A stretch of DNA of 64,000 nt from Geothrix sp. (lineage in GTDB: Bacteria; Acidobacteriota; Holophagae; Holophagales; Holophagaceae). Location: positions 1 through 64,000 of the forward strand of contig NZ_JAHRYQ010000002.1 of assembly GCF_020622065.1 (NCBI RefSeq), given 5' to 3'. Numbering within the stretch: the first letter of the stretch is position 1; each line of letters begins with the position of its first letter. Shown piece by piece: positions 40,621 to 47,774 of the stretch. The notes beneath the pieces are model-generated. The model worked only from the letters and a program-made list of their open reading frames with translations, made no database searches and was not told the DNA's origin. A program made the translations under genes and the position numbers.

Positions 40621-41517
40621 ATGGCCCGCCCTCCCGTCCTCCCCGGCCCCCGTCCCGACTGGCTCAAGATCCGCGTCCCGGCCCCGGAGGTGGTGGCGGA
40701 GGTCGAGGGCCTGATGCGGGAGCAACGGCTGGTGACCGTCTGCGAAGAGGCCCGCTGCCCAAACCTGCACGAATGCTGGGGCATCCACCGCACGGCCACC
40801 TTCATGCTCATGGGGGATATCTGCACCCGGCACTGCGGGTTCTGCAATGTGGGCAAGGGCCGCCCCGGAGAGCTGGACCCAGGCGAACCCCAGCGCGTGG
40901 CCGAGGCCGTGGCGCGCCTGGGCCTGAAATTCGCCGTGGTCACTTCGGTGAACCGGGATGATCTGCCCGACGGAGGCGCCGCCCACTTCGCCGAAACCAT
41001 CCGCTGGATCCGCGCTCTCTCACCCCACTGCGGCGTGGAGGTGCTCATCCCCGACTTCCGGGGCCGCGAGGCCGACCTCCTCACCGTGCTGGAGGCCCGG
41101 CCCGAGGTGCTCAACCACAATGTGGAGACGGTGCCCCATCTCTACCGCCGGGTACGGCCCGACGCGGACTACCTCCAGAGCCTCGAGGTGCTCCGCCGGA
41201 CCGCGGACTGGCGGGACGCCCATGCCCCGGCCATGCGGGTGAAGAGCGGCATCATGGTGGGCTTGGGGGAGACGCCAGACCAGGTGCTCGCCCTCATGGC
41301 CGACTGGCGCGCCTCCCGCGTGGACATCGCCACCATCGGCCAGTACCTGCCCCCCTCCGAGCTGCACCTGCCCCTGCACCGCTTCGTGGAACCGTCCGAG
41401 TTCGACCTGTACCGGCAGAAGGGGCTGGAGATGGGCTTCCAGCGTGTGGAGTCCGCACCCCTGGTGCGGTCCAGCTATCACGCTGGGGAGGGCCTGGCCG
41501 AAATCGCCAAGAGCTGA
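40621..41517 (+). CDS. lipA: lipoyl synthase
   Basis: A 298-residue radical-SAM enzyme that inserts two sulfur atoms into octanoyl-lysine. The auxiliary cluster cysteines are in TVCEEARCPNLHECWG (about residues 39-54). The radical-SAM CxxxCxxC is CTRHCGFCNVGKG (about 69-81). The HNVETVPHLYRRVRP and GIMVGLGETPDQVLALM blocks are family-specific. The conserved RSSYHAGE near the end (residues 287-294) holds the serine that caps the auxiliary cluster. lipB is not adjacent. Start ATG has GGAAGG upstream. Confidence 0.97.
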   Translation: MARPPVLPGPRPDWLKIRVPAPEVVAEVEGLMREQRLVTVCEEARCPNLHECWGIHRTATFMLMGDICTRHCGFCNVGKGRPGELDPGEPQRVAEAVARLGLKFAVVTSVNRDDLPDGGAAHFAETIRWIRALSPHCGVEVLIPDFRGREADLLTVLEARPEVLNHNVETVPHLYRRVRPDADYLQSLEVLRRTADWRDAHAPAMRVKSGIMVGLGETPDQVLALMADWRASRVDIATIGQYLPPSELHLPLHRFVEPSEFDLYRQKGLEMGFQRVESAPLVRSSYHAGEGLAEIAKS

Positions 41518-42730: not shown

Positions 42731-42787
42731 CTGAAAAGGACAAGGGCTCCGGAAGCCGAGGCCCCGGAGCCCTTGTCTGTTTTTCAG
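42731..42787. terminator. bidirectional terminator between the redox operon and the DUF5694 gene
   Basis: A 14-base stem (42739-42752 with 42764-42777; arm GACAAGGGCTCCGG) has an 11-base loop and symmetrical CTGAAAA / TTTTCAG flanks. It follows the response-regulator stop on the minus strand by 6 bases. Confidence 0.85.
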
Positions 42788-42792
42788 TTCAG

Positions 42793-43920
42793 CTAGGCGT
42801 GAACTCGGGCCTCCGCCCCCAGGAACTGCTGCTCGAAGGCCGCCCAGTCCAACGCATCCGTGCCTGCAGCCTGCGGCTTGTCGGAGGTCCGCAGACGGGT
42901 GATCTCGTCCTGGTACCAGTCGATGACGGGTTGGCCGATCTTCAGGGCGGGAAGTTCCCCAGCCAGGTCGGAGGGCGTCATCAGGCAGACCCAGCCCCGG
43001 TCATAGGGGCTGTGCATGAGCTCGCCGGGATCCGTGAGCAGGCCCGCGTTGTCGTGCTCGATGCGGCCGCTGAGGGGCGCGGCCACATGGACCTCGCCCG
43101 TGGCCCCCTTCAGGGTGAAGAGAGGATCACCCTGCTTCACGACCTTGCCCCGCTCGGGAAGCACCACCGTCTTCACGGCACCCAGGGCCTTGCGCACGAA
43201 ATCATCGATGCCCACGCGGATCTGGCCTTCGGGCTCGATCCGGACCCACGCATGGCCCGCCGACAGGAAGGCACCGCCGGGCACGCAGAATTCGCTGGCA
43301 GACACGACCTCGGCCATTTCAGGAGCGACCACGCGCACATTGGGACGGCGCTGAGCTTCGATGCGCGCCGTGCGCTTGATGAGCAGCTTCTTGGCGAACT
43401 CCGCCAGCTCGTCGGCGGTGAAGGGCTTCTGCACATACTCGCAGGCACCCTGCTGGAGCGTCTGGACCGCGGTCTCGATGCTGCCGTAGCCGGTGATGAC
43501 GACCACATCCACATCGGGGCGCAGGTGCTTCGCCGCCTTCACCACATCCACGCCATCCATGTCCGGCATCTTGAGGTCGGTGAAGAGGAAGTCGTAGTCG
43601 TTCCGCTGGATCAGGCCCAGAGCCTCCGGGCCGTGCTCCACGGTGTCGACACTGTAGCCCTCCAGGACCAGGATGCGGCGGAAGGAGTCGAGCACCACCG
43701 CCTCATCGTCCACGGCGATGATCCGGGCCTTGGGATTGGGCACCTCCACGCGCTTGAGGCTCTTGGCCTCATGGGTGAAGTCCAGGCGGATCGAGGTGTT
43801 CAAGACCGCCTCGCGGGCCTGGCGTTCCCGTTTCTCGTGCATGCGGCGGAGGCTCGTACGCACCAGGAAGTCGATGCCCACGAAGGCAACGAACATGATG
43901 ATGATCAAAAGGGCGGTCAT
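42793..43920 (-). CDS. membrane-anchored response regulator fused to a GcvH-like domain
   Basis: A 375-residue protein with three parts. An N-terminal membrane helix (residues 3-20, ALLIIIMFVAFVGIDFLV) is unusual for a response regulator. The receiver domain (66-185) has acidic residues D71/D72, phospho-acceptor D115 (LFTDLKMPDMDG) and K165. The C-terminal part (215-315) resembles glycine cleavage H protein: GHAWVRIEPEGQIRVGIDDFVRKALG and GLLTDPGELMHSPYDRGW. The lipoyl-lysine position of true GcvH (ESVKA) reads LKGATGE, so lipoylation is unlikely. There is no DNA-binding domain. It follows the kinase gene by 9 bases and likely acts on the HybA/HybB-like complex. Confidence 0.85.
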   Translation of the reverse strand: MTALLIIIMFVAFVGIDFLVRTSLRRMHEKRERQAREAVLNTSIRLDFTHEAKSLKRVEVPNPKARIIAVDDEAVVLDSFRRILVLEGYSVDTVEHGPEALGLIQRNDYDFLFTDLKMPDMDGVDVVKAAKHLRPDVDVVVITGYGSIETAVQTLQQGACEYVQKPFTADELAEFAKKLLIKRTARIEAQRRPNVRVVAPEMAEVVSASEFCVPGGAFLSAGHAWVRIEPEGQIRVGIDDFVRKALGAVKTVVLPERGKVVKQGDPLFTLKGATGEVHVAAPLSGRIEHDNAGLLTDPGELMHSPYDRGWVCLMTPSDLAGELPALKIGQPVIDWYQDEITRLRTSDKPQAAGTDALDWAAFEQQFLGAEARVHA

Positions 43921-43929
43921 GGGGACCTC

Positions 43930-45468
43930 CTAGGTGGTGGTGGGAATGGGGGGCTGGCCGCCGTCCGGGGTGTCTTGGGGGCCGGCTGCCGTAGGAATGC
44001 GAAGGGTGAATTGGGTGCCCTGGCCAGGTTCGCTCTGTACCTCGAGGGCGCCGCCGTGGGCCTCGACGATGCCCCAGCTGACTGCGAGCCCAAGCCCCGT
44101 GCCATGGTTGCCCTTGGTGGTGTAGAAGGGCTCGAAGATGCGGGGCAGGTCTTCGGCGGCAATGCCGCGTCCGCTGTCCTTGATGACGAGCTCGATGGAG
44201 CCGTCAGGTCCCGAGCGCGTGCTGGCCCGGATGGTCCCGCCCTCGGTGCCGATGGCATCTCCCGCATTGAGCAGCAGGTTCACGGCCACCTGCTGGATCT
44301 GGTTGGCATCGGCATGGGCGAGGGGCAGTTCCGCCGCCAGGTCCAACGACAGGTCCACCTGGTTCAGCGACAGCTGCGTCATCACCACGGACACCGCCCG
44401 CCGCACGACTTCATTGAGGTCCATGGGCTTCCGCGCCGGAGCCGTGGGGCGGGCGAAATCCAGGAGTCCCCGGATGATCCCCCGGCAGCGCACTGTCTCC
44501 CGGACGATCACATCGAGGTCTTCGCAGGCGGAGGCGTCACCCTCCATCCGCTTTCGCAGCAGGGAGGCATAACTGAGGACGCCGGTCAGCGGGTTGTTGA
44601 TCTCATGGGCGACGCCCGCAGCCAGCCGACCCACGGAGGCGAGCTTGTCGGCCTGGGCCAGCTGCCCCTGAGTCTCGGCCAGCCGTTGGGTCATGGCGTT
44701 GAAGGCCCCGGCCAGCTCGCCCAGTTCATGGCGACCGCTCACGGGGATGGTGGTCGAAAGATCTCCTTCGCCCACCCGCCGCGTGCCTGCCACCAGCGCC
44801 GCCACGGGCTCCACCACCAGCCGGCGGTTCATCCACCAGAGAATGAAGCTGCCCGCGAGCATGGCGAGGATGGCCGAAGCGGCGATCACCGCCCGGCTGT
44901 GGGCGATCTCCCGGTCCACCTCCGCCAGCGACACATTCACATCCAGCACGCCCAGCAGGCTCTGCTTGGCGCTGTGGGCGTGGCAGTCCGCCGTCGAGCA
45001 GGTCGGTTCGTTGGGGATGGGGTTGATGAGGCCCAGAACGCGCGTTCCGTCCGGAGCGCGGAAGGTCCGGGCGCGGGCCTGGATTTCCAGGCGCTCCAAC
45101 GGCCGTCCTTCCGCGTGGCAGGCGTAGCAGGCCTCGCCCCGGATATCGAGGCTGGTGCCGATCTCCTCGTTGGCCGAGGAGAACATGATCCGCCCCTCCT
45201 TGTTGAAGACGCGGACCTTGCGGATGCCCTCCTCCTGGAGCTCGCCCACGGAGCGGATCTGCCGGTGCAGATTCTCCCGGCGGTTCTCAAGCATGTCGAA
45301 GTGGGTGGCGCTCTTGATCGTTTCGCTCAGCTGGTCGGCGCTGCGGGTTCGTTCGGCCAGGAGCTGAGCCGTATGCGACCGCAGGATGACCACCGCCATG
45401 CCGCCGATCACCAGCGCCGTCGACAGACCGGCGCCGAGGATCAGACGGGTGCCGATGCGGGTTCGCAT
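43930..45468 (-). CDS. sensor histidine kinase with two c-type heme motifs in the periplasmic domain
   Basis: A 512-residue kinase. Membrane helices lie at about residues 8-29 and 192-212. The periplasmic sensor contains CYACH (C114, C117, H118) and a wider CSTADCH (C157, C162, H163), both able to bind covalent heme c, which points to redox sensing. A HAMP linker follows. The dimerisation domain has VAHEINNPLTG (phospho-acceptor H288). The ATPase domain shows N, G1 and G2 boxes (LLLNAGDAIG, IKDSGRGI, GTGLGLAVSWG). A Pro-rich tail ends the protein. The cognate response regulator is 9 bases downstream. Confidence 0.9.
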   Translation of the reverse strand: MRTRIGTRLILGAGLSTALVIGGMAVVILRSHTAQLLAERTRSADQLSETIKSATHFDMLENRRENLHRQIRSVGELQEEGIRKVRVFNKEGRIMFSSANEEIGTSLDIRGEACYACHAEGRPLERLEIQARARTFRAPDGTRVLGLINPIPNEPTCSTADCHAHSAKQSLLGVLDVNVSLAEVDREIAHSRAVIAASAILAMLAGSFILWWMNRRLVVEPVAALVAGTRRVGEGDLSTTIPVSGRHELGELAGAFNAMTQRLAETQGQLAQADKLASVGRLAAGVAHEINNPLTGVLSYASLLRKRMEGDASACEDLDVIVRETVRCRGIIRGLLDFARPTAPARKPMDLNEVVRRAVSVVMTQLSLNQVDLSLDLAAELPLAHADANQIQQVAVNLLLNAGDAIGTEGGTIRASTRSGPDGSIELVIKDSGRGIAAEDLPRIFEPFYTTKGNHGTGLGLAVSWGIVEAHGGALEVQSEPGQGTQFTLRIPTAAGPQDTPDGGQPPIPTTT

Positions 45469-45471
45469 GGC

Positions 45472-46638
45472 TCAGGCCCCCTCTTCCGGCCGGTGGCCAT
45501 CGGCCACGGGACCATCGGGGAAGATGGAGAAGTTGCGCACCGCGAAGGCGAACACCGCCATGCCCGTGGCCACCAGGCCCAGCGAGACGATGATCTCCAT
45601 GCCCGAGGGCAGGTAGCGCGTGCCCGAAGCCGCTTCCATGCCCGTGATGCTGACATTCAGGCGGTTCATGACGAAGCCCAGCACCGCCAGGAAAGCCCCG
45701 CCCACCAGCCAGTTCGGATTGGTGCGCAGACGACGGAAGGACATCAGGATCACCGGCAGGATCACGCCCAAGGTGAATTCGAGCAGGAACATCTGGCCCT
45801 CGTAGCCGAAGTCCCGGATGCTGCCGAAGGCGTGGTTGCGGTTGATGGCCTGAAGCCGCATGAGGCCGTAGATGCCGAGGGCCACGACCATGCCGCGGGC
45901 CAGGGGCTCCAGCAGGTCCATCTCCAGATGACGGTGGAAGGCCCGGCCGCTGAGGTAGGACTCCAGGATCACCATGCCGATGCCCGCGCCGATGGCGGAG
46001 ATGTAGAAGTGGAGGGGCAGCATGGGGGAATACCAGAGCGGATGGAGCTTGCTCGGCACGATGAGGTAGAGCGTTCCCAGCGAGGACTGGTGGAGGGTCG
46101 AGAGGATGACGCCGATGATGACGAGCGGAGTGATGAGCCGGTGGATGATCCGCGCCGGGGTATGGAGGCCGAAGCGCTCGAAGACCACGGGGGAGAATTC
46201 CACGGCCAGCACGGTGGTGTAGAGCATCACGCACCAGGCCACTTCGAACATGACGGAGTGGGGGTTCCAGTAGACGATGGCGTGCCAGATGCGCCAGGGC
46301 TGGCCCAGGTCCAGCAGCAGGGCCACGATCACGAAGGCATAGCCCAGGAAGCCCGTCAGGATGGTCGGCCGTACGATGGGCTCGAAGCGCTTGAGGTTGA
46401 AGAGGTGGACCACGGCGGTCAGCGTGAAGGCGCCGGCGGCCAGGCCCACACCGCAGAGCAGGTCGAAGCCGATCCAGAGGCCCCAGGGGAACTGGTCGCT
46501 CAGGTGCGTGACGGCGCCGAGCCCCTTGGTGAAGCGGATCACGGTGACGGCGCAGAAGGCCAGGAAGAGCACGACGAAGACGGCCGTCCAGAAACCGGGG
46601 CGGAACCGACGGGGAGCGAGCGTGGCGAGGGTGTTCAT
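45472..46638 (-). CDS. HybB/NrfD-type integral membrane oxidoreductase subunit
   Basis: A 388-residue polytopic protein of the NrfD/HybB family, the quinone-interacting membrane subunit of many respiratory complexes. About ten helices are visible: FWTAVFVVLFLAFCAVTVIRF, GLWIGFDLLCGVGLAAGAFTL, ILTGFLGYAFVIVALLLDLG and so on. Conserved parts are PWRIWHAIVYWNPHSVMFEVAW and TLHQSSLGTLYLIVPSKLHPLWYSPMLPLHFYISA. No cofactor-binding cysteines are expected. The ATG at 46638 overlaps the HybA-like gene stop (ATGA). An open frame running past 46638 into the Fe-S gene is an artefact of high GC. Confidence 0.92.
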   Translation of the reverse strand: MNTLATLAPRRFRPGFWTAVFVVLFLAFCAVTVIRFTKGLGAVTHLSDQFPWGLWIGFDLLCGVGLAAGAFTLTAVVHLFNLKRFEPIVRPTILTGFLGYAFVIVALLLDLGQPWRIWHAIVYWNPHSVMFEVAWCVMLYTTVLAVEFSPVVFERFGLHTPARIIHRLITPLVIIGVILSTLHQSSLGTLYLIVPSKLHPLWYSPMLPLHFYISAIGAGIGMVILESYLSGRAFHRHLEMDLLEPLARGMVVALGIYGLMRLQAINRNHAFGSIRDFGYEGQMFLLEFTLGVILPVILMSFRRLRTNPNWLVGGAFLAVLGFVMNRLNVSITGMEAASGTRYLPSGMEIIVSLGLVATGMAVFAFAVRNFSIFPDGPVADGHRPEEGA

Positions 46639-47399
46639 GACCGGTCCTCCCGACCGTGGTTGTGTCCGTTGCCGTTGGATTCCGCCTTGGCCACATCCAC
46701 GCGGCGGGCCGTGATCCAGTGGACGCCGTAGAGGAAGACGCCCCATACGCCCACGAAATCGGGAATGTTGGAGAGCACCTGCCAAGTGCGCATGGCCGGG
46801 GGATCGGCGGGCAGGTTCGACTTGAGGCCCAGCTTGTCGAAGGGAGCGCTGGAAATCATCATCACCGAGGTGCCGCCGGCCTCGGTGAGTCCGTAGATGT
46901 GGTCCACATAGGCGCCCGGCTTCTGCCGGATGCGCGTCCGGGCCTCCCAGATCAGATCCTCCTTCTTGCCGAAGATGGTGGCCTCGGCCGGGCAGGCCTC
47001 GGCGCAGGCCGTGGGCTTGCCCTCCTTCAGGCGCCCGGCGCACAGGATGCACTTCCCCACCACGGGCACCGGCCGGTCCCACTGGTACTTCGGGATCTCG
47101 AAGGGGCAGGCCATCATGCAGTAACGGCAGCCCATGCAGCGCTCGGCATCGTAGACCACCGGTCCCTCGGGCGTTTTCTTCAGGGCGGCGACGGGGCAGA
47201 CGGAGGCGCAGGTCGGCACCTCGCAGTGCATGCACATGCGGCGGACATTGAGGCCTTCCCGTTCCTGGACCGTGGTCCAGGTATAGGCCGTCAACACCTC
47301 CTCTACCTTGCCCGGTAGCTTGTTCTGCTCCTTGCACGCGGAGCTGCAGGCGCCGCATCCGATGCAGCGCGTAGCGTCGAAGAGAAGGCCCATGCCCAT
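46635..47399 (-). CDS. HybA-like periplasmic-type [4Fe-4S] ferredoxin subunit
   Basis: A 254-residue protein with four cysteine clusters able to hold four [4Fe-4S] centres: CIGCGACSSACKEQN (residues 12-26), CMHCEVPTCASVCPVAAL (about 57-74), CMGCRYCMMACPFEIP (about 89-104) and CILCAGRLKEGKPTACAEACPAEA (about 117-140). A C-terminal helix (VGVWGVFLYGVHWITA) anchors it in the membrane. A Tat signal is not seen, so its side of the membrane is unclear. It transfers electrons to or from the HybB-like subunit; a catalytic partner is not in this cluster. The first gene of the operon, with SD AGGAGAA before the ATG. Confidence 0.92.
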   Translation of the reverse strand: MGMGLLFDATRCIGCGACSSACKEQNKLPGKVEEVLTAYTWTTVQEREGLNVRRMCMHCEVPTCASVCPVAALKKTPEGPVVYDAERCMGCRYCMMACPFEIPKYQWDRPVPVVGKCILCAGRLKEGKPTACAEACPAEATIFGKKEDLIWEARTRIRQKPGAYVDHIYGLTEAGGTSVMMISSAPFDKLGLKSNLPADPPAMRTWQVLSNIPDFVGVWGVFLYGVHWITARRVDVAKAESNGNGHNHGREDRS

Positions 47400-47573: not shown

Positions 47574-47774
47574 TTAAGCCTTCTTGGCCTTAGGGCAGTC
47601 GGCCTTCTTGCAGTCGGCGTTTTTATCGCACGCCTTATCCCCCTTACAGGTCGTCTTATCGGCCTTGCAGCACTCCTTGCAGGCCTTGGGGGCGACCGCC
47701 TCCTTGGGCTTGTCCTGAGTGAAGGCGGTGACGGCGAAGGCCGCGACCGCGAGCGAAACGAGGAACTTCTTCAT
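47574..47774 (-). CDS. small Cys/Lys-rich secreted protein
   Basis: A 66-residue protein. A Sec signal peptide covers residues 1-19 (KKFLVSLAVAAFAVTAFT). The mature part has seven cysteines in about 37 residues, spaced KACKECCKADKTTCKGDK and AC-DKNADC-KKADC, with many lysines and aspartates. This is metallothionein-like in composition but matches no family I recognise. Metal binding or a disulfide-rich fold are the obvious options. It has its own AGGAG ribosome site, a -10-like TACCCT about 30 bases upstream and its own terminator, so it is an independent gene between the HybA operon and groESL. Confidence 0.75.
   Translation of the reverse strand: MKKFLVSLAVAAFAVTAFTQDKPKEAVAPKACKECCKADKTTCKGDKACDKNADCKKADCPKAKKA

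Follow-up and report, generated by a model that had tools for sequence, protein, structure and literature searches.

A membrane-anchored receiver joined to a lysine-less GcvH-like domain, encoded with an Fe-S/NrfD pair and a haem-motif kinase in Geothrix: a candidate effector of electron transfer

The last gene of a tight operon in Geothrix sp. encodes a membrane-anchored response regulator, here termed RR-GcvH, in which a receiver is joined to an H-protein-like domain that has lost the lipoyl lysine. We consider it possible, at a rough probability of 0.45, that this protein is a two-component effector whose target is an electron-transfer complex and not DNA, along a scheme leading from a kinase via phosphorylation of D115 to docking. 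The gene lies in the window, i.e., the whole stretch of 64,000 nucleotides that was analyzed (assembly GCF_020622065.1, contig NZ_JAHRYQ010000002.1, positions 1 to 64,000, forward strand). Its open reading frame starts with ATG, specifies 375 amino acids and comprises the following features:

42793..43920, minus strand: RR-GcvH, consisting of transmembrane (TM) helix, receiver, GcvH-like domain and helical tail (open reading frame, Pfam, AF2 model)
43846..43920, minus strand: N-terminal membrane helix, about residues 1-25, with a basic stretch after it (sequence and model)
43345..43731, minus strand: receiver domain, residues 64-192 (Pfam, structure match)
43576..43578, minus strand: codon of the phospho-acceptor D115 (receiver alignment)
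42904..43290, minus strand: GcvH-like domain, residues 211-339 (Pfam and structure comparison)
43099..43101, minus strand: codon of T274, at the place of the lipoyl lysine of true H-proteins (alignment)
42793..42903, minus strand: C-terminal tail, residues 340-375 plus stop, partly common to receiver-less TM-GcvH proteins

The order of membrane helix, receiver (D115, K165) and GcvH-like fold had originally been proposed from the sequence, and it was confirmed. Pfam places Response_reg at residues 67-174 (E 3.9e-27) and GCV_H at residues 222-320 (E 7.2e-16). An AF2 model was built on an alignment of 23 homologues (pLDDT 83; at a pTM of 0.53 the placement of the domains relative to each other is unreliable). 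When this model was compared with known structures using VIA-align, residues 64-192 matched a receiver with Z 21.5, and residues 211-339 matched E. coli apo-H-protein (3a7l) with Z 19.8 and an rmsd of 1.1 A over 128 residues, as well as the pea H-protein (Z 19.8); the VIA-align rows are mostly receivers, GcvH rows are present too and other folds are possible. H-proteins also took the top rank in a Foldseek search of the PDB (30 % identity, E about 1e-11). Structure prediction and comparison with GcvH, which had been suggested as a check, thus confirmed the H-protein fold. Neither Pfam nor the AF2 model revealed a DNA-binding or catalytic domain, just as had been anticipated.

The receiver contains everything that is expected of a response regulator, namely an acid pair (D71/D72), the phospho-acceptor aspartate (D115), the threonine/serine (T143) and the lysine (K165), all of them invariant among the 23 homologues. 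Mean identity is 89 % for the receiver, 71 % for the whole GcvH-like domain and 58 % for the hairpin formed by residues 270-277. The basic residues after the TM helix suggest an N-out/C-in orientation, which would place the receiver and the GcvH-like domain in the cytoplasm. The helix itself contains D17, likewise invariant in the 23 homologues, and an invariant acidic residue at such a place is suggestive of a membrane partner.

True H-proteins carry the lipoyl lysine eight residues ahead of the conserved proline in a 'P-S-G' turn. The equivalent position in RR-GcvH is T274, eight residues before the invariant P282, and the proposed replacement of the lysine also holds for the family: 75 of 76 distinct receiver-fused domains have A, G, T, S, L, E, D or Y at this position, the sole lysine occurring in L041 (the position was assigned by pattern and is uncertain by about one residue in short forms). 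The genuine GcvH of the host is encoded by a separate gene (C1:1392061), the only other PF01597 gene in the genome, and retains the lysine (ESVKTVSE). RR-GcvH shares with GcvH (PF01597, TIGR00527) the full fold, the HxW motif, P-S-G plus N after the hairpin and the PY..GW end. It differs in the missing lipoyl lysine, in its membrane anchor, receiver and extra tail, and in the lack of adjacent gcv genes, and it scores too low for curated GcvH (57.5 vs 115.85 for TIGR00527 and 57.8 vs 117 for NF002270).

The operon is located on the minus strand and runs from the gene for the Fe-S protein via those for an NrfD-type protein and a histidine kinase to that for RR-GcvH, with genes overlapping or separated by gaps of at most 9 bp:

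46635..47399, minus strand: HmcB/HybA-like 4Fe-4S protein without Tat signal peptide (Pfam, NCBIfam)
45472..46638, minus strand: NrfD/HmcC-like integral membrane subunit (Pfam, NCBIfam)
43930..45468, minus strand: sensor histidine kinase of 512 aa with periplasmic Cache/PAS-like domain, HAMP, HisKA and HATPase_c, 9 bp upstream of the RR-GcvH gene
45115..45129, minus strand: haem-c motif CYACH in the kinase sensor domain (C114, C117 and H118 invariant in 22 kinases)
44980..45000, minus strand: second haem-c-type motif CSTADCH (CX4CH) in the sensor domain (C157, C162 and H163 invariant in 22 kinases)
42740..42777, minus strand: GC-rich inverted repeat immediately following the operon, a probable terminator as judged from its sequence

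Between groEL and the operon (about 47600-47774, minus strand) lies a small Cys- and Lys-rich, secreted-looking open reading frame (MKKFLVSLAVAAFAVTAF...), and on the other side lipA for lipoyl synthase (40621-41517, plus strand) is convergent with the operon. A sigma-54 promoter ahead of the Fe-S gene was considered and discarded, as it is a single match in the window that is not conserved in homologues.

The original prediction had named the neighbours HybA and HybB. An Fe-S/NrfD-type pair is indeed present; the names fit less well than HmcB- and HmcC-like, and even these NCBIfam matches stay below the curated cut-offs (HmcB, E 1.7e-74, 250.7 vs 420; HmcC, E 8.1e-102, 341.3 vs 550), such that the two subunits are, by sequence, similar to Hmc and not equivalogs. 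The operon has HmcB- and HmcC-like proteins in common with Hmc/HybAB-type Fe-S plus NrfD modules; unlike Hmc, it lacks the HmcA cytochrome, its Fe-S protein has no Tat signal and a GcvH-like gene is added. The Tat signal is missing from the Fe-S protein in Geothrix-type operons, and many relatives have one. Since the Fe-S protein of the window lacks this signal, it is expected on the cytoplasmic side of the membrane, the same side as the GcvH-like domain. The kinase carries two haem-c motifs in its periplasmic domain, where haem attachment is predicted; the 22 aligned kinases in which the motif residues are invariant come from four phyla. The best PDB matches of the sensor domain include the sensor domains of WalK and KinD. 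It is the only kinase of its kind in the genome, where 13 other matches span only the HAMP side of the profile.

Further receiver-GcvH fusions and their neighbours, a search for which had also been recommended, were found across Holophagaceae, Spirochaetota, Pseudomonadota, Desulfobacterota and Nitrospirota. The full-length protein is encoded in most of the Holophagaceae genomes searched (dozens), in single MAGs assigned to Spirochaetia (L047) and Gammaproteobacteria (L050) and also in Desulfobacterota (L208). Because the architecture is shared by dozens of Holophagaceae genomes and extends to other phyla, it is not a product of chance, and the idea of a curiosity confined to Holophagaceae was rejected, given the same or related architectures elsewhere. 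L047, L050 and L208 each have two receiver-GcvH genes, one long and one short, the short form comprising about 260-300 aa without a TM helix. Nitrospirota contain the short form only, and at 16 of 16 loci its gene is followed by one for a fusion of a receiver with NuoE (with one receiver gene between them in L072). In L060 (8815-9741), this receiver plus NuoE-like [2Fe-2S] thioredoxin-fold protein (2Fe-2S_thioredx, 1.6e-48; Response_reg, 2.3e-28; Pfam) adjoins NuoF/NuoG-like genes, and it occupies the same place in other Nitrospirota. A divergent second copy of RR-GcvH is encoded in the Holophagaceae MAG bog_363 (L048, 7869-9107).

Both NrfD and a kinase with CxxCH motif are encoded at 35 of 36 long-form loci from Acidobacteriota, Spirochaetota, Pseudomonadota and Desulfobacterota (at least 4.5 kb of upstream sequence was required, a limit from which L046, L155 and L208 were exempted). 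When all loci are considered, which are of unequal length and include relatives that are not independent, a histidine kinase or NrfD occurs in the flank at 43/46 loci in Holophagaceae, 14/16 in Nitrospirota, 29/39 in other Acidobacteriota, 16/20 in Desulfobacterota and 2/2 in further MAGs. By comparison, neither was encoded within 5 kb of canonical gcvH at any of 20 control loci (drawn for the most part from the same phyla, with about 10 kb of sequence per region). The kinase, counted by itself, is a neighbour at 14/16 loci in Nitrospirota, 24/39 in Acidobacteriota and 15/20 in Desulfobacterota. NrfD is absent from all 16 Nitrospirota loci and from several Desulfobacterota and Acidobacteriota loci beside the kinase, and about a quarter of the loci in Desulfobacterota and non-Holophagaceae Acidobacteriota have neither partner within the region covered. 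The general picture is that the long form tracks NrfD and the short form tracks the kinase.

When the fused GcvH domain was used as a query in Acidobacteriota and Desulfobacterota, many relatives without a receiver were retrieved, consisting of TM helix, lysine-less GcvH domain and tail, present in one to four copies per cluster; their genes often adjoin those for HmcB/HmcC-type Fe-S/NrfD proteins, for an NtrC-type regulator and for a kinase bearing two haem-c motifs. By sequence, these TM-GcvH proteins from other Acidobacteriota and Desulfobacterota appear to be the closest relatives of the GcvH-like part of RR-GcvH. In a tree of 132 domains, calculated from few columns and therefore weak at the deep forks, the long receiver form makes up a clade of its own (support 100/95) within a larger group that also contains the TM-GcvH proteins and is not fully supported (89/84); the short receiver forms fall outside this group and canonical GcvH stands apart. 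In all seven long forms examined, a profile built from 16 receiver-less TM-GcvH proteins gave a split match, one part covering the TM helix and the other GcvH plus tail, with the receiver between them (second part in the protein from the window, 7.9e-44). Taken together, the split match and the tree make it most likely that the receiver was inserted later between anchor and GcvH domain of an older membrane-anchored, lysine-less protein. The original notion that a swinging-arm fold was simply recruited as the output of a response regulator is therefore not upheld: the receiver-less family was already lysine-less, anchored and tied to Fe-S/NrfD and kinase genes before the receiver came.

Other arrangements occur as well. 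A Cys-rich segment, roughly C-x-[WY]-M-x5-Y-x2-C-x5-C-x2-C, without a Pfam match recurs N-terminal to lysine-less GcvH domains (L146 4386-5525, L148 4008-5231, L152 7734-8585, L158 7697-10441 and others); it is found alone once (L142 5940-6440), with the same 'LQDGG' tail. A Desulfobacterota locus (L215 4656-7714) contains four lysine-less GcvH-like genes in tandem in a 12-kb region without kinase or NrfD.

In the mechanism that we favor, the partner kinase would use its two c-type haem motifs to read the redox state of periplasmic carriers or of a quinone branch and would phosphorylate D115 of the receiver. Phosphorylation would reposition the GcvH-like domain, which, free of lipoate at the usual site, may be the module that docks on the cytoplasmic HmcB-like Fe-S/HmcC-like NrfD pair; docking would alter either assembly of the pair or the flow of electrons into or out of the quinone pool, in one direction or the other. 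For the protein from the window, docking on Fe-S/NrfD is preferred because the operon contains neither another receiver nor a transcription factor. Receiver-less TM-GcvH proteins are also encoded beside Fe-S/NrfD, so the link to this pair is independent of the receiver. The receiver-NuoE protein of Nitrospirota appears to be a second case of a receiver on a redox-enzyme subunit and is counted for docking. Against it stands the second copy in L048, which has neither kinase nor NrfD nearby. At some loci the Fe-S subunit is of the Tat type and periplasmic, so docking there would have to proceed via NrfD or the kinase.

Many relatives are encoded beside the kinase without NrfD, so that, for the family at large, the kinase may be the constant partner. 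The GcvH-like protein may then modulate kinase or phosphatase activity or provide a phosphate sink at the membrane, with transcription via an NtrC-type regulator as the output. This explanation is rather unlikely. In its favor, no other gene accompanies the family as constantly outside Holophagaceae as that of the kinase, the short RR-GcvH genes in L050, L047 and L208 begin right where the kinase gene ends, and NtrC-type regulators are often encoded nearby. However, the NtrC-type gene is missing from Holophagaceae operons, where no other receiver gene was found near 44 of 46 loci (present in 2/46), the receiver-less forms have no obvious role in phosphate transfer, and NrfD tracks the long form (35/36). 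The data fit both docking on Fe-S/NrfD and action on the kinase. We regard it as less probable still that the GcvH-like domain belongs to the Fe-S/NrfD complex as a structural or assembly subunit, comparable to a scaffold or chaperone, with the receiver mainly controlling how much of it there is or where it is localized rather than electron flow. The one to four paralogues per cluster and the common receiver-less forms would agree with such a role, but the intact catalytic residues of the receiver argue for real phospho-signaling, and loci with only the kinase are left unexplained. H-protein clefts accommodate small groups, and the predicted fold is kept intact, two points in favor of a ligand or cofactor bound non-covalently in the old lipoyl cleft and making the domain a sensor that gates the receiver; we rate this as improbable. 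Lipoylation at another lysine, which would make RR-GcvH a redox carrier, is least credible of all: the operon has lipA as its neighbour in the window, as it does at 19 of 23 well-flanked Holophagaceae loci, and K271 is only three residues from the usual site, but these 19 loci also share groEL in synteny, and lipA occurs at none of 92 others, which led us to reject its adjacency as local synteny, while K271 is not fixed (K in 15 of 23, R in 5, otherwise E, I or other) and the hairpin belongs to the less conserved portions of the domain.

Some response regulators have outputs other than DNA binding, RssB being one example. RR-GcvH resembles RssB-type regulators in that a receiver is joined to a domain that probably docks on proteins, and differs in its membrane anchor and in the nature of that domain, a degenerate H-protein. 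Among GcvH-like proteins that function outside glycine cleavage, LbpA of the sHdr sulfur-oxidation pathway is similarly linked to a redox complex; it has a strictly conserved lysine and is lipoylated (PMC6067878), unlike the family described here, in which the lipoyl lysine is missing. Curated families of H-like proteins that are not GcvH, NF045810 (GcvH-related protein) and TIGR03077 (GcvH-like 'not_gcvH'), are weakly similar to the receiver-less relatives (scores of 25-50 vs cut-offs of 144-150), and their descriptions mention neither receiver nor membrane anchor. NCBIfam and Pfam contain no family describing the receiver-GcvH fusion or receiver-less TM-GcvH, and neither the fusion nor TM-GcvH with NrfD is described in the open-licence PMC literature, to which the search was confined and in which absence is a weak argument. 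The RR-GcvH family is thus apparently widespread and undescribed. Receiver and H-protein-like domain are both of known kinds, and novelty of the entire module is a realistic possibility.

A practical consequence concerns annotation, as Pfam GCV_H alone labels TM-GcvH and RR-GcvH genes as glycine cleavage H-protein. More broadly, and tentatively, the family may represent a respiratory control module in which haem-c kinases and membrane-anchored, lipoate-less H-protein homologues, some with a receiver and some without, that dock on Fe-S/NrfD or Nuo-type partners adjust electron flow directly by phosphorylation, with the NtrC-type regulator as a transcriptional arm in many lineages. The family occurs in Geothrix and, with or without receivers, in many Acidobacteriota, Desulfobacterota and Nitrospirota, groups that matter for the anaerobic cycling of carbon, iron and sulfur, and its presence in Geothrix and other such groups makes the proposal testable in culture. 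If it is true, the H-protein fold would have found a second career with its chemistry removed, and respiration would be tuned by acting on the machinery itself, on the timescale of phosphotransfer rather than that of gene expression.
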